Assembly (NCBI GenBank): GCA_030602715.1 | Contig: JAUVZD010000010.1 | Coordinates: 62,001-126,000 of the forward strand | From: Candidatus Coatesiibacteriota bacterium | GTDB taxonomy: Bacteria; RBG-13-66-14; B26-G2; JAUVZD01 | Direction of reading: 5' to 3' | DNA: 64,000 nucleotides | In this document: positions 35,747 to 44,180 of the stretch, one piece after another | How the letters are laid out: every line of letters starts with the position of its first letter | How positions within the stretch are numbered: position 1 is the first letter of the stretch | Position numbers and translations under genes: made by a program | Notes under the pieces: generated by a model | What the model was told of the DNA's origin: nothing | The model's database searches: none | What the model saw: only the letters and a program-made list of their open reading frames with translations

Positions 35747-36880
35747 TTGGCTCACGCCTATACACCCGGATTGAAGGTGGTGGAGGAGATGGTGCTGGTC
35801 AAGGAGCGCAAGCTTCCTCTGGCTGGTGAGGTGCTGGTCAAGAAGGAAGAGCCGGTGGAAGCGGAACAGGTGGTAGCACTCACCAGTCTGCCCGGCAATG
35901 TGGTCACTGTGAATGTAGCCAATAAACTGGGATTAATCCCGGAGGACATCCCCGGTTCAATGGTAAAGAAGGAGGGGGAGGAGATTAAGAAGGGGGATGT
36001 TATCGCTCAGAGCAAGGGGCTCTTCGGTCTATTCACCTCCAAGGCGGAAGCTCCGGTTGACGGGACCGTTGAGTCAGTCTCCAATATCACCGGGCAGGTC
36101 ATTTTGCGGGAACCGCCCCAGCCGGTGGAGATTAACGCCTACATCCGGGGTTGGGTGAAGGAGATAATCCCCGAAGAAGGGGTCTTGGTGGAGACGATAG
36201 GTTCGTTTATACAGGGCATCTTCGGGGTCGGTGGGGAGGTGCACGGGGAGATAGAGATGGCGGTTGCCAAGCCAGATGAGGTGTTGACTGCAGAACACAT
36301 TAAACCCGGGCATAAGGGCAAGATATTGGTCGGCGGGGCGCGGATAACCCAGGAGGCGATTAAGAAGGCTGAGGAGAACGGTGTGGTGGGAATCATCGGC
36401 GGGGGGATGGATGACCGCGACCTGCGCCGGATTCTGGGTTACGAGTTGGGGGTGGCTATCACCGGCAAGGAAAATATCCCCACCACCATCGTCATCACCG
36501 AGGGCTTCGGCAATATCGCTATGGCTTCCGCCACTTTCAATCTTCTGAAGAAGAGGGTGGGTATGTTGGCTTCTATGAACGGGGCTACACAGATTCGTGC
36601 CGGAGTCATCCGCCCGGAGATAGTGGTCCCTCTTAAGAAATCCAGTTCCAGGAGGGATATTGAAAGAAAGAAGGAGGAGACCGGCAATCTCGTCGTGGGA
36701 AGTCGGGTGCGGGTTATCCGTGAGCCCTACTTCGGTCGTCTGGGCCAGGTAACCGAGCTTCCCCCGGAACTGACCGAGCTGGAGAGCGAGGCAAGGGTCA
36801 GGGTGCTCAAGGTAAAATTTCCGGATGATAAGAAGGAAGCGGTAGTTCCCAGAGCCAATGTGGAGTTGATTGAGACATAG
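35747..36880 (+). CDS. Barrel-sandwich/KOW-like protein of unknown function
   Basis: This 377-residue soluble protein starts at TTG, 8 bases after a strong AAGGAGG site. The N-terminal part (about 1-130) is rich in short beta strands around paired lysines (KEERKLPLAGEV-like, MVKKEGEEIKKGDVIA, KAEAPVDGTVESV), resembling biotinyl/lipoyl-type barrel-sandwich folds. A middle alpha/beta part has GHKGKILVGGARITQEAIKKA, GVVGIIGGGMDDRDLRRILG and TTIVITEGFG. The C-terminus (VGSRVRVIREPYFGRLGQV, then AVVPRANVELIET) is KOW-like, a motif found in nucleic-acid- and ribosome-associated proteins. I recognise no named family. It has its own promoter. Confidence 0.75.
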   Translation: MAHAYTPGLKVVEEMVLVKERKLPLAGEVLVKKEEPVEAEQVVALTSLPGNVVTVNVANKLGLIPEDIPGSMVKKEGEEIKKGDVIAQSKGLFGLFTSKAEAPVDGTVESVSNITGQVILREPPQPVEINAYIRGWVKEIIPEEGVLVETIGSFIQGIFGVGGEVHGEIEMAVAKPDEVLTAEHIKPGHKGKILVGGARITQEAIKKAEENGVVGIIGGGMDDRDLRRILGYELGVAITGKENIPTTIVITEGFGNIAMASATFNLLKKRVGMLASMNGATQIRAGVIRPEIVVPLKKSSSRRDIERKKEETGNLVVGSRVRVIREPYFGRLGQVTELPPELTELESEARVRVLKVKFPDDKKEAVVPRANVELIET

Positions 36881-36896
36881 TTAGAATTCACTTACC

Positions 36897-38195
36897 ATGA
36901 ATACAACTGAAACTGCGGATAGTTTCTCTGGTCTTATGCAGGTAATCACCAAACGGAGAACTATCCGTTCTTTTGTCAGCAAACCTATTGAGGAGAAAGC
37001 CCTGCGCAAGTGTCTTGAGGCGGGGCATTGGGCTCCCTCGGCTTGCAACCGCCAACTGTGGGAGTTCGTGGTGGTTGACGACCCCCAAATTATCCGCAAG
37101 TTGGAAAGCATTACCCAACAACCTACTCCCCATGCCATATATATCGCCATATTCTATGATTTGACCAAGGAGCTTCCCGGTTCCCGCTTGGGCGGTGTCC
37201 AATCCGCCGCCATTGCCGCACAGAACCTGATGCTTGTCGCCCACAGCCTGGGCTACGGCACCAAGATGATAGCTGGGCTCAACTCTCCGGAGTCCATCGG
37301 GCGCCTGCTTAAAGCTCCAAAGGGGGTAGAGGTTATCTCCCTGATAGCGTTCGGTCATCCGGCACAGATTCCCTCCCCGCCCAGCCGTGGACCACTGCAT
37401 GAGATTGTCCACCGCAATCGCTTTCATATTGATAAGATGCGTTATCCCAATCATCTGGATGCTTATCTGTGGGATGAGGATGAGGTGGTGCGTCTTCAGA
37501 GTGGTGTAGTGCGCCATGGGGGACATATAGGCTTCTTCCGCAGTAGTGTGGAGGAGGATTTACTACATGAGAGTTTGGCTCCGATTCGTTTAGAGAGCCA
37601 GTGGCGAGCACTTTTCCTTTTCCCACATTCCGCAAGATATATTAATCCTCTTGAGGAACGCTTCCCTCAGACGAAGATGGAGTTGCTGTGCCAGAGTGAG
37701 GACAACGGTTACTACATCAGCTCTGAGTTGAAACATTCTTTACCCATTCATGTTGGTGGATTCACCCAGAGTGGTCTGACCGCTTCCAGTTACGATGCTC
37801 TGCTTTTGCTGGATAGTGGCATCCACCTCCCCAGACTGGACAAGACTCTAGCTGAAATATATCGTCTGCTAAAAGCGGAAGGCGTTCTTTATATCTCCAT
37901 GCCCAGCTCCAAATCACCTCTATTGCTGAAACTCTGGCGAGAGCGTCTGGCGGTCAGCCTGACCCGAACCCCTTACTGGCGGGTTGGACCGATTCACCCG
38001 TTGAACCCCAAGGAGATGTCAAAGATGCTTGCCGAAGCCGGTTTTAAGATTGGGGAAAAGTATTTTGTCTCCGTTGAGAGGGATGAACCGCAGACGATTA
38101 TGGGAAAGTTGAAACTGGCGGTGATTAAGCTTCTCAGGAGGATGAATCCGGCATATCACGACCTGATGCTTTTCAAAGCTTTCAAAGCCAAGTAG
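36897..38195 (+). CDS. Nitroreductase domain fused to a methyltransferase-like domain
   Basis: A 432-residue two-domain protein. Residues 10-185 form a nitroreductase-type flavin domain: ITKRRTIRSFVSKPIEEKAL, GHWAPSACNRQLWEFVVVD, IAAQNLMLVAHSLGYGT and the closing EVISLIAFGHPA. Residues about 200-432 look like a Rossmann methyltransferase lacking a standard GxGxG motif I: the later segments SSYDALLLLDSGIHL, TLAEIYRLLKAEGVLYISMP and NPKEMSKMLAEAGF are methyltransferase-like. FMN-dependent reduction plus a degenerate methyltransferase fold in one chain is unusual. The stop shares one base with the start of the next gene. Role unknown. Confidence 0.78.
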   Translation: MNTTETADSFSGLMQVITKRRTIRSFVSKPIEEKALRKCLEAGHWAPSACNRQLWEFVVVDDPQIIRKLESITQQPTPHAIYIAIFYDLTKELPGSRLGGVQSAAIAAQNLMLVAHSLGYGTKMIAGLNSPESIGRLLKAPKGVEVISLIAFGHPAQIPSPPSRGPLHEIVHRNRFHIDKMRYPNHLDAYLWDEDEVVRLQSGVVRHGGHIGFFRSSVEEDLLHESLAPIRLESQWRALFLFPHSARYINPLEERFPQTKMELLCQSEDNGYYISSELKHSLPIHVGGFTQSGLTASSYDALLLLDSGIHLPRLDKTLAEIYRLLKAEGVLYISMPSSKSPLLLKLWRERLAVSLTRTPYWRVGPIHPLNPKEMSKMLAEAGFKIGEKYFVSVERDEPQTIMGKLKLAVIKLLRRMNPAYHDLMLFKAFKAK

Positions 38196-40135
38196 TGTTT
38201 ATGAGCTACGGAGGATTCCAAAGGCTACATAGACTGGGAGCGGATGTCGCCGGCTATCTTATCCGCCAGATGGATGACCAAGGTCGCATCTTTGATGTGG
38301 TGGATGACGCCCCCACACCAAAGGACCATTATGCGCAGACATTTTTAGCGTGGGCTTGCCTCAATCTGGAGCTGATAGACCAAGCCGAGCGAGCTCTGAG
38401 CGCTTTCTTTGACCGACCCCAGGGATGGTGGAATCATCCCGACTTTAATAGTTTCGCTCTGGCTAACATATCCGTTCATCCCCGTCTCCAGGCTTTAAGC
38501 GAGCGGATAAAGAAGCAGGTGGACAGTTATCTTGAGTCCCCCCCATTCAGGTCCGGACCCAAGACGGGCGTCTCCAATAACTGGTTGGCTATGCAGGCGG
38601 CAACGCTTGCCCTTTTGGGTCGGGCCAGGGGAAGAATGGATTGGCAGGCGAAAGCCAGAAAGATTGTGGAGGATTATGCTCTAGCCTGGCAACTCCCCGA
38701 CGGTCTTTTCGCCGACTTTCCCGTAAAACCCCGAAGGGGTGGATTCGCCACCCCTTTAACCTACCACGCCAAGATATGCTCTATGCTCATTCGCTATGCA
38801 CTGCTCCTTAACCATGAGCAAGCGCTTTCCGCTGGTTTGCGGGGCATGGAGGTTTTGTGCCGAATTACCTTCAGTGACGGTTCGGCGTTTCAATTCGGGC
38901 GGACCAATATGGGGCTGTTCGGCTATGCATGTTTCCTGGATGGGTTGAACAATTTGTTGGAGAGGGGCATCGGCGAGCTGTCTCTGTGGGCTGAGGTTCA
39001 ACTTGCCCTGCTTGCCAAGCTGGAACCGCTCCAGGAAGCGGATGGGTATATTGCACTTAATCCCTCAAGAAATGTATCTCAGCGACCGAGCTGGGATGAA
39101 TATATGCACCTTACAGTTTATAATGCCTATTTCTCCGCCCTGGCTACGATAAAGAGAGAAGCTTTCCGGGGGGAGATTTCTTTTAGGAAAGTTGAACGGT
39201 CGGCAATATCAATCCTCACTTCGTCGGGGCTGTCTCACATTAAAGCGGAGGAGACTGAGCTTTTGCTCTCACTCTCGGGTCAGGCGGTGTTGGGGCAGGG
39301 ACACCTGTTCTGCGACAACCGTTATGCGGGCATGAATATCTGCCACCTGACACACAAGGATGCCACGGTAGTAGCCCCACCTCCGTTAAACACAAAAGAG
39401 CTTAACGGTCCTTTTGAACCTTCTTTTTTGGGATTTCACCCCTGGTTTGTTGAAGAAGGCTCTCGCTACCAGTTCAAATCCTTTGATCTGGTTGACATCC
39501 GTCGTGGCGAAGATGACGCCTTTTTGTTAATTGTGGGTCTATCAAAACCGGTCTCTTTCAGGGCTATAGATTGGGATGGAAAGCCGATTTATGAGCGGGT
39601 GATGCGTAAGCTGGGACGTATGATAATCGGCAGAAGGAGACCGGTGCTTGACCGATTAGAAAAATCCCGCCCCGATCTGCAGCGGGTTATTCTTGTCCAT
39701 CTGCACCCCTTCCTCATTCTATTTATTGATAGGCTATCCAGGATGGGAGAAACGACCGGGCTATACTCCCCGACGGTCTGTTTTTCTGCAACCTCTTGGA
39801 AGGAGATGGATGGCGGCGTTTCCTTCGTTGACGAGGGCGGTAAGAGGTGGGAGTTTCTTTTCATTCCAACTGTGGAAGGCTCAGCGAAGAAGGTTGATGT
39901 GTGGAGCAGTTCCGGCAAGACGACAATACTTTCCTATCCTGCAAAATATGCCAATAGTGAGGTTTGGCAATCCACACTTCTGACCAAAGAAGAGGAGAGA
40001 CCGAAGGAATTCAGATTTGACTGCTCAGGTGAGCGGTTTAGATTGGATTTAATGTGGGAGCATAAAAGGCTGGGACTTTCCGGGCAGGTGGGCGGGAGGG
40101 GTTTGATTTCAATAGGCAGAGACGGATTTGGCTAG
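38195..40135 (+). CDS. Large protein with alpha/alpha-toroid-like domain (heparinase-like layout)
   Basis: A 646-residue protein beginning with GTG at 38195 (sharing one base with the previous stop) or ATG at 38201. The first half is helical with repeats typical of alpha/alpha toroids (YAQTFLAWACLNLELIDQAERAL, NNWLAMQAATLALLGRARG, TYHAKICSMLIRYALLLNHEQ). The second half is beta-rich (SGLSHIKAEETELLLSLSG, NICHLTHKDATVVAPPPL). This order resembles heparinase II/III and related polysaccharide lyases, but I cannot point to the catalytic residues, and there is no signal peptide, which argues against a secreted lyase. Co-translation with the nitroreductase fusion suggests a shared pathway. Confidence 0.68.
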   Translation: MFMSYGGFQRLHRLGADVAGYLIRQMDDQGRIFDVVDDAPTPKDHYAQTFLAWACLNLELIDQAERALSAFFDRPQGWWNHPDFNSFALANISVHPRLQALSERIKKQVDSYLESPPFRSGPKTGVSNNWLAMQAATLALLGRARGRMDWQAKARKIVEDYALAWQLPDGLFADFPVKPRRGGFATPLTYHAKICSMLIRYALLLNHEQALSAGLRGMEVLCRITFSDGSAFQFGRTNMGLFGYACFLDGLNNLLERGIGELSLWAEVQLALLAKLEPLQEADGYIALNPSRNVSQRPSWDEYMHLTVYNAYFSALATIKREAFRGEISFRKVERSAISILTSSGLSHIKAEETELLLSLSGQAVLGQGHLFCDNRYAGMNICHLTHKDATVVAPPPLNTKELNGPFEPSFLGFHPWFVEEGSRYQFKSFDLVDIRRGEDDAFLLIVGLSKPVSFRAIDWDGKPIYERVMRKLGRMIIGRRRPVLDRLEKSRPDLQRVILVHLHPFLILFIDRLSRMGETTGLYSPTVCFSATSWKEMDGGVSFVDEGGKRWEFLFIPTVEGSAKKVDVWSSSGKTTILSYPAKYANSEVWQSTLLTKEEERPKEFRFDCSGERFRLDLMWEHKRLGLSGQVGGRGLISIGRDGFG

Positions 40136-40170: not shown

Positions 40171-40199
40171 TTGATAGTTTATATTAAACAGGCTATAAT
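40171..40199 (+). promoter_or_regulatory. Promoter of the four-gene membrane operon
   Basis: TTGATA (40171-40176), a 17-nt spacer and TATAAT (40194-40199) stand about 86 bases before the first start codon, in an AT-rich gap. Confidence 0.75.
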
Positions 40200-40285
40200 T
40201 TTCACAATATTATCCTTTCACCTATCGCCCTTAGCTGGAAGATTTTTTAAACACCGAAGCTGGTTTAGAGGAAAGGAAGGTGATT

Positions 40286-41554
40286 ATGGGGCTGAGAGCT
40301 GAAAGCCGGAGCTGGGGAATCGGTGTCTTCTTGGTCTTAACACTGTTCTTGATCCCTGCTCTGGCGTCCGCTAAGGAACCTGTGCCTCCTGAGAGCGGTG
40401 AGGCGGAAGTGGAAGCAGCGACACCCGAAGGGGAGACGGTCTCTCCTCTGGAGTCTCCGCTCAACTTCACCGCCTTGGACAACCCCAACGACGACGGCGA
40501 GAAGATTAAGCTCACCTGGGAGCTATCTCCCGGTGACCAACCGGAGTTAGGCAAGAAGGAAAATCCGGTCAAGGGTTATTGTATCTCTCGCCTGGGCCCT
40601 GAGGAGGCGGAGTGGCAGGTGATAACCGTTCAGCCGCCGGGGATAACCTCCTATGTTGACAGTGGCACAGAGGAGTTTCCACTGGAGGATGATGTCCTAT
40701 ACAATTACAGAATAGAAGCGGTAGGCGAGGGGGAGGTCTTATCCTCACCGATAGTAGTTGAGGGCGTAGTCTGCGGGGTACAGTTTTTCAATACCGACCG
40801 CATCAACATTTTGGTATGCGTCATCGCTTATCTCTGCATCGTTATGTTCTTCATCTTCCGGGCTCGCAAGGGGCACGAGCTGTTCGTGCGCCGTATCGCC
40901 GGACTGGATGCGGTTGACGAGGCAATAGGTCGTGCTACTGAGATGGGTAGACCTATACTTTTTATCACCGGTTTACACGATGTTGCTGATATCTCCACTA
41001 TAGCCGCCATCACCATACTGGGTAAGGTAGCACGTAAGACCGCTGAATATGAGACTCCACTTTTGGTTCCAAATTACGACCCGGTGGTTATGTTGGTAGC
41101 CCAGGAGACGGTCAAACAGGCTTATCTGGAGGGCGGTCATCCGGATGCATACTCCGATGATATGGTCTTCTTTCTCACCACCAGCCAGTTCGGCTTTGTG
41201 GCTGCGGTGGACGGTATCATGGTGCGTGAGAAGCCGGCTACAAACTTCTATATGGGCTACTACTACGCCGAGTCGTTGATACTGGCGGAGACCGGAGCCG
41301 ACACCGGAGCCATTCAAATCGCCGGCACCGACTCCGTAACCCAGCTCCCCTTCTTTATCACCTCCTGTGACTATACCATCATCGGGGAGGAGCTTTATGC
41401 GGCAAGCGCCTATCTGTCCAAGGAACCCCTGCAACTGGGAAGCCTAAAAGCTCAAGATTTGGCTAAGGTGATAATCGGTGTTTTTATATTGACAGGGATA
41501 GCGGCTACTTTGTTCGGCTGGATGTGGGTGGTTGACCTGTTTATCGCCCGATAG
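40286..41554 (+). CDS. Membrane operon protein 1: signal peptide, FN3-like domain, DUF6754-like domain
   Basis: About 422 residues from the ATG at 40286, 5 bases after GGAAGG. A signal peptide or anchor (GVFLVLTLFLIPALASA|KE) is followed by a Pro/Glu-rich stretch, then a fibronectin-III-like domain (residues about 55-160: LNFTALDNPNDDGEKIKLTWE, KGYCISRLGPEE, DVLYNYRIEAVGEGE). A transmembrane helix (NILVCVIAYLCIVMFFIF) follows, then a domain of about 190 residues with MGRPILFITGLHDVADISTIA and LLVPNYDPVVMLVAQET, and a C-terminal helix. The large domain reminds me of what is catalogued as DUF6754; this is from memory. First gene of a tight four-gene operon. Function unknown. Confidence 0.8.
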   Translation: MGLRAESRSWGIGVFLVLTLFLIPALASAKEPVPPESGEAEVEAATPEGETVSPLESPLNFTALDNPNDDGEKIKLTWELSPGDQPELGKKENPVKGYCISRLGPEEAEWQVITVQPPGITSYVDSGTEEFPLEDDVLYNYRIEAVGEGEVLSSPIVVEGVVCGVQFFNTDRINILVCVIAYLCIVMFFIFRARKGHELFVRRIAGLDAVDEAIGRATEMGRPILFITGLHDVADISTIAAITILGKVARKTAEYETPLLVPNYDPVVMLVAQETVKQAYLEGGHPDAYSDDMVFFLTTSQFGFVAAVDGIMVREKPATNFYMGYYYAESLILAETGADTGAIQIAGTDSVTQLPFFITSCDYTIIGEELYAASAYLSKEPLQLGSLKAQDLAKVIIGVFILTGIAATLFGWMWVVDLFIAR

Positions 41555-41634
41555 AGACTGGAGAGTGGGAAGATGAAAGGACCGATGACTAAAGATGAAA
41601 TCGCATCTGTATATGTGGTGGGGAGGTGGAAACG

Positions 41635-42336
41635 GTGAGGAGAGGGGTCCCGGTATTGATCTGTGCGATTATGGGTGTCGCCATGATCATTCAATTCTTC
41701 ATCCCCCATCCCGTCTCTCAGGCCATATACAAGACGGTTATAAAATGGTTCATCATCATCATAGCCTTCGCCATGATTTTGGGGTTGTTGTCGCTCACCC
41801 GTATGCATCTCACCAAACTGCGCAGAGGGGATAAAGACTGGTTCTTTAGTCTGGTGACCATCTCCAGCCTGTTCGTCAACCTATTGGTGGGCTTCTTCAG
41901 CTTCAGAATCACCGATTCCTTCATATTTGAGGGTCTAAAAGTGCCCTTCAATTTCTTCACCATCAGCTTCGCCACCGGCTTGGCTGCGGGCTCGCCCTTT
42001 ATGAACCTCTTTGATTACATCCAGGTGCCCATGCAAGCCACCATGTTCAGCCTGCTTGCCTTCTTCATCGCTTCGGCGTCCTTCCGCACCTTCCGGGCTC
42101 GCACGCCGGAGGCAACGCTATTGCTCGTCGCCGCCCTCATCGTCATGGTTGGGCGGGTGCCGGTAGGTCATATGATCAGCACATCCATCCCGGCACTTTC
42201 CGATTGGATACTGGTCAATCCCAATATGGCTGCCAAACGGGGGATTATGATCGGCGTCGGCTTGGGTGCTATCAGCATGGCTCTCAAGATAATTTTGGGC
42301 ATTGAGCGCTCCTGGCTCGGTGGAGGAGGTGAATAG
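41635..42336 (+). CDS. Membrane operon protein 2: polytopic membrane protein
   Basis: About 233 residues from the GTG at 41635, 8 bases after a GGTGGGGAGG site; an earlier GTG at 41626 overlaps that site. Six or seven hydrophobic helices are present: VPVLICAIMGVAMIIQFF, WFIIIIAFAMILGLLSL, LVTISSLFVNLLVGFF, FFTISFATGLAAGSPF, TLLLVAALIVMVGRV and a last one near GIMIGVGLGAISMALKIIL. Basic loops (TRMHLTKLRRGDKD, RTFRARTPE) suggest cytoplasmic sides. I recognise no transporter signature. Three bases separate it from the next gene. Confidence 0.78.
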   Translation: MRRGVPVLICAIMGVAMIIQFFIPHPVSQAIYKTVIKWFIIIIAFAMILGLLSLTRMHLTKLRRGDKDWFFSLVTISSLFVNLLVGFFSFRITDSFIFEGLKVPFNFFTISFATGLAAGSPFMNLFDYIQVPMQATMFSLLAFFIASASFRTFRARTPEATLLLVAALIVMVGRVPVGHMISTSIPALSDWILVNPNMAAKRGIMIGVGLGAISMALKIILGIERSWLGGGGE

Positions 42337-42339
42337 GGG

Positions 42340-43251
42340 ATGTATAAGATACTCAATGCTTTCCTCAAAATTAACCGTCGCTGGATATTCCTGCTGGTCT
42401 TATTGGGTGTATTGATTCCTCTGGTTCTGGGCAAGGGGCTCACTCGCTCCTATCCCGGCGATGAGGTGGTGAAGGTTTATAACTTTCTGAATAACCTGGA
42501 AGAGGGAGACATAATCATCGCCTCCATGGATTACGACCCCGCCACTATACCTGAACTGAACCCTATGGCCAGGGCGGTGCTGCGCCACTGCTTCAACAAA
42601 GGCATCAGGGTGGTAAGCCTGACCTTGCATCCCGCCGGACCCGGTGTGGTCATAACTTTGATTGACGAGCTACTTCGGGAATACTCCCAGCCGGGTGTAA
42701 ACCCTGACGGTAGTGTGCGACCGGTGCGTAAATACGGCGAGGATATCGTCTTCTTGGGTTATAAGGTAGGGACGGCGGTGAATATACTGGCTCTTGGTGA
42801 GGATGTGCGCCTTTCTTGGCCGCAGGACTATGCAGGAGTGGAGCTTCCCGCATACGGGAGCGACCCCACCCAGACCACACTCCCTTTGATGTGCGATGTC
42901 CAGAATTACAGCGATGTCAAGTGCGTGGTCACCATCTCCGGGACCAGAATCCCGGAGTATTGGGTGGCTTATGGCTACCAGCGCTACCATGTGAAGGTGG
43001 CTACCGGATGCACCGCAGTTATGTTCGCCGATTTTTATCCTTATCTGCAGACCGGTCAGATGATAGGTCTTCTTCCGGGGATGAAGGGCGCCGCCGACTA
43101 TGAGGAGCTGATCAATCGCCCCGCTAGAGCCATGGTGGGGATGCTTCCCCAGTCTATAGTCCACCTGATGATAGTGGGCTTCATTATTCTGGGGAATATC
43201 GCTTTCTTCATTGTGCGCCGTTGGGAGAAGAAGGGAGGTGGCAATAGATGA
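42340..43251 (+). CDS. Membrane operon protein 3: two-helix protein with a soluble alpha/beta domain
   Basis: A 303-residue protein with an N-terminal helix (WIFLLVLLGVLIPLVLGKGL), a soluble domain of about 230 residues, and a C-terminal helix (SIVHLMIVGFIILGNIAFFIV) followed by a basic end. The domain contains DIIIASMDYDPATIPELNPMA, KGIRVVSLTLHPAGPGVVITL, KYGEDIVFLGYKVGTAVNIL and CVVTISGTRIPEYWVAYGY, reading as an alternating alpha/beta fold. The two-anchor design parallels protein 1, so both may present domains on the same side of the membrane. The stop overlaps the next start by 4 bases. No family recognised. Confidence 0.78.
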   Translation: MYKILNAFLKINRRWIFLLVLLGVLIPLVLGKGLTRSYPGDEVVKVYNFLNNLEEGDIIIASMDYDPATIPELNPMARAVLRHCFNKGIRVVSLTLHPAGPGVVITLIDELLREYSQPGVNPDGSVRPVRKYGEDIVFLGYKVGTAVNILALGEDVRLSWPQDYAGVELPAYGSDPTQTTLPLMCDVQNYSDVKCVVTISGTRIPEYWVAYGYQRYHVKVATGCTAVMFADFYPYLQTGQMIGLLPGMKGAADYEELINRPARAMVGMLPQSIVHLMIVGFIILGNIAFFIVRRWEKKGGGNR

Positions 43252-44126
43252 AGAACAAATGGCTGTTGTTCTTGATAGGTCTGGGGATGGCTGTGGTGGT
43301 TGGTTTTCTCTCCCATTTTACCTTCTATACCACCGGTGAGGACGATACCTTGCAGATGCATACCTGGCTGGGTCTAACTTTAGCCGCCATCCTGACCCTG
43401 TTCATTTATACCTTTCTTTACAAGGACAACCCCCTCTATAAATTTGCCGAGCACCTTCTGGTGGGCACCTCTGCGGGTTACTATCTGGTCATCTACTATC
43501 ACAACTCGGTGAAGCCCAATATGATTGACCAGATAGTCGCCGGCTTCCAGCAGATAGGTCATATGCGAGCCGAGGGCACCTTTAACTTCGTGGATAGTAT
43601 CCTGACCAACGCCGGGATATGGGCGATAGTGCCGGGTATCTTCGGTTTCATGATCCTCTTCCGCCTTTCCAGAAAGCTCAGTTGGCTCTCCCGCTATTCA
43701 TTTGGCTTCTATATCGGCACCGCGATGGGTATGTATATCCCTGTCGGTTTTCAAGCCTCTATCGTTGAGCAAATTAGGGGGACCATAGTTCACTCGGCGG
43801 CGGTTGAACCCACCCCGGTCTTCAACCTGACTTACTTCGGCGAATTCTTCTCCCACCCCACCTGGGGGGGATTCGTCCAGGCCATCTCCGGCCCGCTGGT
43901 AATCGTCGGCATCTTCTGCACCCTGATGTACTTCTTCTTCAGCAAGGAGCATACCGGCGTCTTCGGAGCCTTCAGCAAGGTGGGCATCTGGTTCCTGATG
44001 GTGGGCTTCGGCGCCAGCTTCGGAGCCACGGTAATGGCTCGTATCAGCCTGCTCATCGGCAGAATGGACTTCCTGATCAACGACTGGTTCAGGGGCTTAA
44101 TCCTGCCCCTCTTCGGCGGAGGGTAA
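43248..44126 (+). CDS. Membrane operon protein 4: polytopic membrane protein
   Basis: A 292-residue protein with about seven hydrophobic helices (LLFLIGLGMAVVVGFLSHF, LGLTLAAILTLFIYTFLY, VGTSAGYYLVIYYH, IWAIVPGIFGFMILFRL, GPLVIVGIFCTLMYFFF, VGIWFLMVGFGASFGATVMARISLLIGR). It starts with ATGA overlap on protein 3, the usual sign of a stoichiometric complex. The last helix region resembles the late helix of protein 2 (VMVGRV against LLIGRM), hinting at a distant common origin, which is weak. The operon ends at a strong terminator. Function unknown. Confidence 0.78.
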   Translation: MKNKWLLFLIGLGMAVVVGFLSHFTFYTTGEDDTLQMHTWLGLTLAAILTLFIYTFLYKDNPLYKFAEHLLVGTSAGYYLVIYYHNSVKPNMIDQIVAGFQQIGHMRAEGTFNFVDSILTNAGIWAIVPGIFGFMILFRLSRKLSWLSRYSFGFYIGTAMGMYIPVGFQASIVEQIRGTIVHSAAVEPTPVFNLTYFGEFFSHPTWGGFVQAISGPLVIVGIFCTLMYFFFSKEHTGVFGAFSKVGIWFLMVGFGASFGATVMARISLLIGRMDFLINDWFRGLILPLFGGG

Positions 44127-44151
44127 GAGCTAGAGCAGAGACGGATAAACC

Positions 44152-44180
44152 AAACCCCCTCCATATACTGGAGGGGGTTT
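44152..44180. terminator. Bidirectional terminator between the membrane operon and metG
   Basis: A perfect 12-bp stem AAACCCCCTCCA / TGGAGGGGGTTT around TATAC, with T runs following on the plus strand and A/T on the other, between convergent genes. Confidence 0.9.

Follow-up and report, generated by a model that had tools for sequence, protein, structure and literature searches.

Four adjacent genes, here called g1 to g4, lie in a 64,000-nucleotide stretch of a Candidatus Coatesiibacteriota genome (contig JAUVZD010000010.1, positions 62,001 to 126,000; hereafter the window) and are best explained, with a probability of roughly 0.5 for the whole account including its mechanism, as the membrane components of a conserved envelope system with seven genes. 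The other three members are c0, a soluble protein, c1, which is likely an ATP-binding ATPase of the MutL/GlmL type within the ASKHA group, and c2, a protein of ~120 amino acids (aa). We consider it highly probable that all seven genes are linked into one system. The initial annotation had treated g1–g4 as a self-contained unit of two anchored and two polytopic proteins, a view that operon structure, gene fusion and co-occurrence with c0, c1 and c2 lead us to disfavor.

In Planctomycetota, the seven genes form a packed and contiguous operon in the order c2-c1-c0-g1-g2-g3-g4 (loci L127 and L130, and also L123 and L126), which in one genome is carried by a multi-megabase contig. Across 246 genomes of this phylum, g1 was detected in 62, g3 in 63, c0 in 59, c1 in 61 and c2 in 60, and these are nearly the same genomes: all five families are present in 53 of them, while 66 carry any of the five. 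All 62 g1-positive genomes also possess g3, which occurs alone in one further genome. Pairwise hypergeometric tests return p-values of 1e-43 or smaller, but they assume independent genomes and overstate significance; our case for linkage is instead made on the agreement of the presence sets, together with the operons and with single-chain fusions of c1 and c0, about 845–1040 aa long, which were found in seven genomes from several phyla (L131–L137).

It could be argued that g1–g4 nevertheless form a complex of their own, tied to c0, c1 and c2 only through shared lineage or a common regulon, as the four genes have their own promoter and terminator in the window, some genomes carry cassettes without a c0 or c1 match, and the c1-c0 fusions are located away from cassettes. 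Contiguous packed operons of seven genes, and presence sets that nearly coincide in Planctomycetota, of whose genomes only a quarter carry the system, are difficult to reconcile with this explanation, which we regard as distinctly unlikely.

The g1–g4 cassette itself is widespread. When about 85,000 species genomes were scanned, with Archaea, Chloroflexota and monoderm bacteria outside the sample, at least 561 relatives were confirmed, the closest of which belongs to a Candidatus Coatesbacteria genome. Gene order was analyzed in the best 80 loci (from Coatesbacteria, Edwardsbacteria, Stahlbacteria/WOR-3, Zixibacteria, Latescibacterota, Fermentibacteria, Eisenbacteria, Poribacteria, Planctomycetota including Brocadia and Scalindua, Cloacimonadota, CSSED10-310 and others), plus two loci from the source genome. 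A full cassette ordered g1-g2-g3-g4 starts at 96 of 112 g1 genes, which bears out, as far as fixed order is concerned, the undescribed membrane complex proposed in the initial annotation. Many or most exceptions are interrupted where a contig stops, and solo copies of g1 account for about six. Solo g1 genes, devoid of g2–g4, were noted at L024:15947-17110, L045:8923-10092, L133:4818-5999, L021:8971-10071 and L053:8950-10029. In most cases, neighboring genes of a cassette overlap or are no more than 20 bp apart (median spacings of 13, 0 and 0.5 bp), 18 loci contain two or three full cassettes, often as tandem arrays, and the protein distance matrices of g1–g4 correlate at 0.74–0.84 (87 cassettes). 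As this arrangement is conserved in more than 10 phyla, it reflects more than chance. In the WOR-3 phylum, 140 of 147 genomes carry g1, in up to seven copies for genomes of about 2–3 Mb, and in the phylum of the source genome DUF6754, the main domain of g1, is found in 13 of 14 genomes (0 of 14 control genomes).

Solo g1 genes in Fermentibacteria-type loci adjoin an acetyltransferase-like gene, and in four WOR-3/Stahlbacteria loci (L054, L061, L071 and L088) the cassette is followed, in a fixed order, by DUF4388, small membrane proteins, ExbB and TonB genes. Genes for TonB-dependent receptors, ExbB/ExbD/TonB, glycine cleavage and lipoate ligase, present near some cassettes, were judged to be lineage-specific neighbors.

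In the window, the four genes are co-directional and are framed, as initially annotated, by their own promoter match and a strong terminator:

35747–36880, + strand: c0, a 377-aa soluble protein with RnfC_N-, NqrA_N- and biotin-lipoyl-like barrel-sandwich segments and a KOW-like C-terminus (weak Pfam matches).
40171–40199, + strand: sigma-70-type promoter match, TTGATA-17-TATAAT (11/12, the best in the 10 kb scanned; a consensus match only).
40286–41554, + strand: g1, 422 aa, with a signal peptide, an FN3 domain (about 40460–40771), a transmembrane helix, DUF6754 (40781–41539) and a C-terminal transmembrane helix.
41573–41638, + strand: 21-codon open reading frame (ORF) overlapping the g2 start (GTGA junction), read from the sequence.
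41635–42336, + strand: g2, a 233-aa polytopic membrane protein with about six hydrophobic segments (ORF; family-consensus start).
42340–43251, + strand: g3, 303 aa, with a predicted extracytoplasmic alpha/beta domain between two transmembrane helices (ORF and AlphaFold2 model).
43248–44126, + strand: g4, a 292-aa polytopic membrane protein with about six hydrophobic segments (ORF; conserved family).
44152–44180, + strand: intrinsic terminator of the g1–g4 operon (12-pair stem with 7 GC pairs, T-rich tail).

The start of g1 is probably the ATG at 40286, the alternative being a GTG at 40280 (424 aa). For g2, we favor the GTG at 41635 over position 41626 because it fits the family consensus MRRxIPL; the motif GGGGAGG lies 8 bp ahead of it, and its overlap with the 21-codon ORF may reflect translational coupling. 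The tight packing of g2–g4 was confirmed, with 3 bp between g2 and g3 and 4 bp shared by g3 and g4. The description of g2 and g4 as polytopic also stands, although hydropathy peaks suggest about six helices in each of them and not about seven.

Residues 168–420 of g1 match PF20539 (DUF6754) over profile positions 4–256 of 257 (E 4.1e-120, 400 bits for a cut-off of 27), so that the domain, which had been put forward only as possible, can be considered certain on sequence grounds. The database entry is a function-less label for a single domain, silent on operon and partners. The FN3-like domain of g1 is backed by both sequence and fold, with Pfam matches in 15 of 62 relatives, PDB profile matches and a corresponding Foldseek fold; FN3 dominates the Foldseek list of g1, in which the DUF6754 fold is unmatched. 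AlphaFold2 models show predicted local distance difference test (pLDDT) and template-modeling (pTM) scores of 88.7 and 0.73 for g1, and of 94.3 and 0.90 for g3, where helices flank an alternating alpha/beta domain; Foldseek searches with g3 against PDB and viral structures returned no match with E≤0.001. No Pfam or NCBIfam model matches the g2, g3 or g4 protein of the window above its cut-off, comparison of their family profiles with PDB chains revealed no convincing sequence relative, and scans of family members yielded scattered weak matches in single members only. Searches with g1–g4 in Pfam, NCBIfam and PADLOC provided nothing convincing beyond DUF6754 and FN3, and a role in defense was discarded as there was no PADLOC match. 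In agreement with the earlier report that no enzyme or transporter motif could be recognized, g2 and g4 could not be assigned to any known transporter family in the Pfam, NCBIfam and PDB comparisons.

Topologies of g1 and g3 were deduced from charge (positive-inside rule). The helices of g3 are flanked by positive residues at both termini (R13 and R14; RRWEKKGGGNR), which should place its domain on the outer side of the membrane. In g1, the signal peptide, FN3 and a helix are followed by RARKGHELFVRR, so that DUF6754 should face the cytoplasm, with FN3 outside. The soluble domains of the two proteins appear to occupy opposite faces of the membrane: both proteins are anchored around a soluble domain, as initially proposed, but they would not share an orientation, DUF6754 being predicted as cytoplasmic and the g3 domain as extracytoplasmic. 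In the models, predicted helices and strands follow one another in a similar order in the alpha/beta domains of g1 and g3, and sequence profiles give no homology support, as hhalign comparisons of g1 with g3 and of g2 with g4 were not significant, including at the domain level and with a reversed control. A Zixibacteria chromosome carries g3 and g4 as one 571-aa ORF (L084:10961-12676), which may be a natural fusion. This ORF was not used as evidence for a joint fold: a mixed alignment misplaced the g3 C-terminus, and a lost stop, an indel or a sequencing error is possible.

Polar conservation is highest in the predicted cytoplasmic domain of g1 (GRATEMG, AETG, IQIAGT and CDYTLIGEE, with R204, E221, E337, D364 and E371). 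Together with the presence of domains on both membrane faces, this would suit an envelope sensor, in which FN3 and the g3 domain detect a ligand or stress outside and DUF6754 relays the signal to c0 and c1. No kinase, regulator or nucleotide-cyclase gene recurs nearby among the flanking-gene clusters, however, and the near-universal occurrence in small WOR-3 genomes, which hold up to seven copies, is more in keeping with a housekeeping role; we therefore deem signaling improbable.

The three other members of the proposed seven-gene system were picked up by clustering the genes that flank cassettes, where c0 was found in 15 loci, c1 in 13 and c2 in 10. Homologues of c0 lie immediately 5' of the cassette in most of the 15 fetched loci, and of 48 genomes that carry a cassette or belong to the same phylum, 47 have c0. 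In the window, it is located 3.4 kb upstream of g1, outside 40171–44180, with two genes in between. The first (36897–38195) is a single ORF whose N-terminus matches nitroreductase and whose C-terminus matches methyltransferase-like models, and the second (38195–40135), directly 5' of g1, encodes a 646-aa protein for which no Pfam or NCBIfam model scores above its cut-off.

The nearest domain matches of c0, all sub-threshold, are to the barrel-sandwich hybrid domain of RnfC and NqrA (RnfC_N, 18.2 bits for a cut-off of 25.6; NqrA_N, 15.9 bits for a cut-off of 25), with further weak signals for Biotin_lipoyl and KOW. Combined with a layout of two polytopic and two anchored subunits, they raise the possibility of an RNF/NQR-like redox ion pump, where c0 would play the RnfC/NqrA part, g2 and g4 would form the channel and g1 and g3 would be anchored electron carriers. 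Yet no iron-sulfur motif was seen in the c0 alignment, other RNF/NQR subunits are unmatched, and g1–g4 display no metal-ligand pattern and no conserved Cys/His cluster for iron-sulfur or heme (one Cys in g1, and a single His in each of g3 and g4). As, in addition, the linked enzyme is an ATPase and not a dehydrogenase, a redox pump seems very improbable.

This putative ATPase, c1, matches the whole PF13941 model (E 2.2e-122 for the protein of the source genome and 1e-125 for a homologue). The ASKHA phosphate motifs DxGSTTTK and DxGGAT occur in 10 of 10 homologues checked and are also readable in the c1 of the source genome. The MutL/GlmL family is known for accessory proteins of B12 mutases (methylaspartate mutase accessory protein and ornithine Or-4 among its entries), so c1 might be a GlmL-type accessory for cobalamin-enzyme reactivation, to which the membrane module would be ancillary. 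A c1 homologue (L058) does match NCBIfam GlmL with E 5e-67, but it scores 226.6, short of the equivalog cut-off of 475, and also falls below the Or-4 cut-off, and among the flanking-gene clusters no mutase gene recurs beside c1, whose neighbors are c2, c0 and g1–g4. This explanation is barely credible in our opinion.

The ASKHA nature of c1, which also shows a weak MreB-like match, opens another possibility, namely that c1 is an actin-like organizer that arranges g1–g4 as a platform for envelope assembly or secretion and itself moves nothing, in the manner of PilM, GspL or FtsA. The resemblance to these is by analogy only: they are cytosolic ASKHA proteins linked to bitopic envelope proteins, and g1 (with FN3) and g3, with their extracytoplasmic domains, are reminiscent of PilN/O/P-type platforms. 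PilM, GspL and FtsA belong to other families, however; PilN/O lack the polytopic character of g2 and g4; and the flanking-gene clusters contain no recurring pilin, secretin or secretion ATPase gene, nor pilus, secretion or division genes more generally. We thus consider a pure scaffold unlikely.

Gene copy numbers provide a clue to how the seven-gene system may be organized. The source genome (2.31 Mb in 18 contigs) contains three full cassettes but single c0, c1 and c2 genes, c1 and c2 being separated by a single gene on contig C10 (L101). The two further cassettes are on contigs C17 (L007) and C4 (L008); the latter lacks FN3 and has, between g2 and g3, an additional 191-aa protein with a signal-like N-terminus (L008:9058-9633), for which no convincing family match was found. 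These copy numbers suggest that several paralogous membrane cassettes share a single c1/c0/c2 set. A shared energizing unit with interchangeable membrane modules is reminiscent of Group II ECF transporters, an analogy drawn from copy numbers only, as we found no sequence relationship and no ABC ATPase.

Under the mechanism that we propose, c1 and c0 would form a cytosolic unit docking on the cytoplasmic DUF6754 of g1. An ATP-driven conformational change would then pass through the helices of g1, g2 and g4 to the extracytoplasmic domains of g3 and g1 (FN3), which would move or assemble some cell-envelope component, the different cassettes supplying different specificities around a shared cytosolic engine. 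We put forward such an ATP-driven transport or assembly step only tentatively. Equally tentative is the idea of an unrecognized class of envelope machines with exchangeable four-protein membrane modules that may draw their energy from a MutL-type ASKHA ATPase and a barrel-sandwich adaptor.

Several observations weigh against the proposed seven-gene system or its mechanism. The co-occurrence p-values ignore phylogeny. Six Planctomycetota genomes possess g1 but no c0 match, and 13 of the 66 positive genomes, many of them fragmentary, are devoid of at least one of the five families. The c1-c0 fusions stand apart from full cassettes, so that relatives of c1 and c0 may have other jobs, and about six g1 copies are solo. 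In the window, two unrelated genes stand between c0 and g1, and g1–g4 have a promoter of their own. We know of no MutL-type ASKHA protein that powers membrane transport. Finally, the interaction of the seven proteins is a prediction from gene linkage.

Two other parts of the window deserve mention. Between 15124 and 19546 (- strand), six tandem ORFs of about 200–224 aa look like related lipoproteins, and a protein similar to this lipoprotein-like run is found near the C4 cassette (L008:2779-3336). Between 47948 and 49682, there are two adjacent ATPases, presumably MinD/Mrp-like, each with a ferredoxin-like cysteine insert.

Among open-access papers (subscription papers and preprints lying outside this search), we found no description of DUF6754, GlmL/MutL or their combination as such a system, and DUF6754 is not mentioned at all. 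DUF6754 and MutL are already catalogued as single families, and the combined system is new as far as the searched libraries and papers show. Multi-copy and close to core throughout whole phyla, with at least three families lacking a Pfam or PDB relative, this membrane system represents a large blank in bacterial cell biology, and the ATPase, the adaptor and the intact Planctomycetota operons make its function directly testable. If the system is ATP-driven, the MutL/GlmL family would have been put to use in membrane energization or assembly. If it does constitute a class of envelope machines, this class would occur almost throughout the WOR-3 phylum and would be widespread in Planctomycetota, Zixibacteria, Poribacteria and related phyla.

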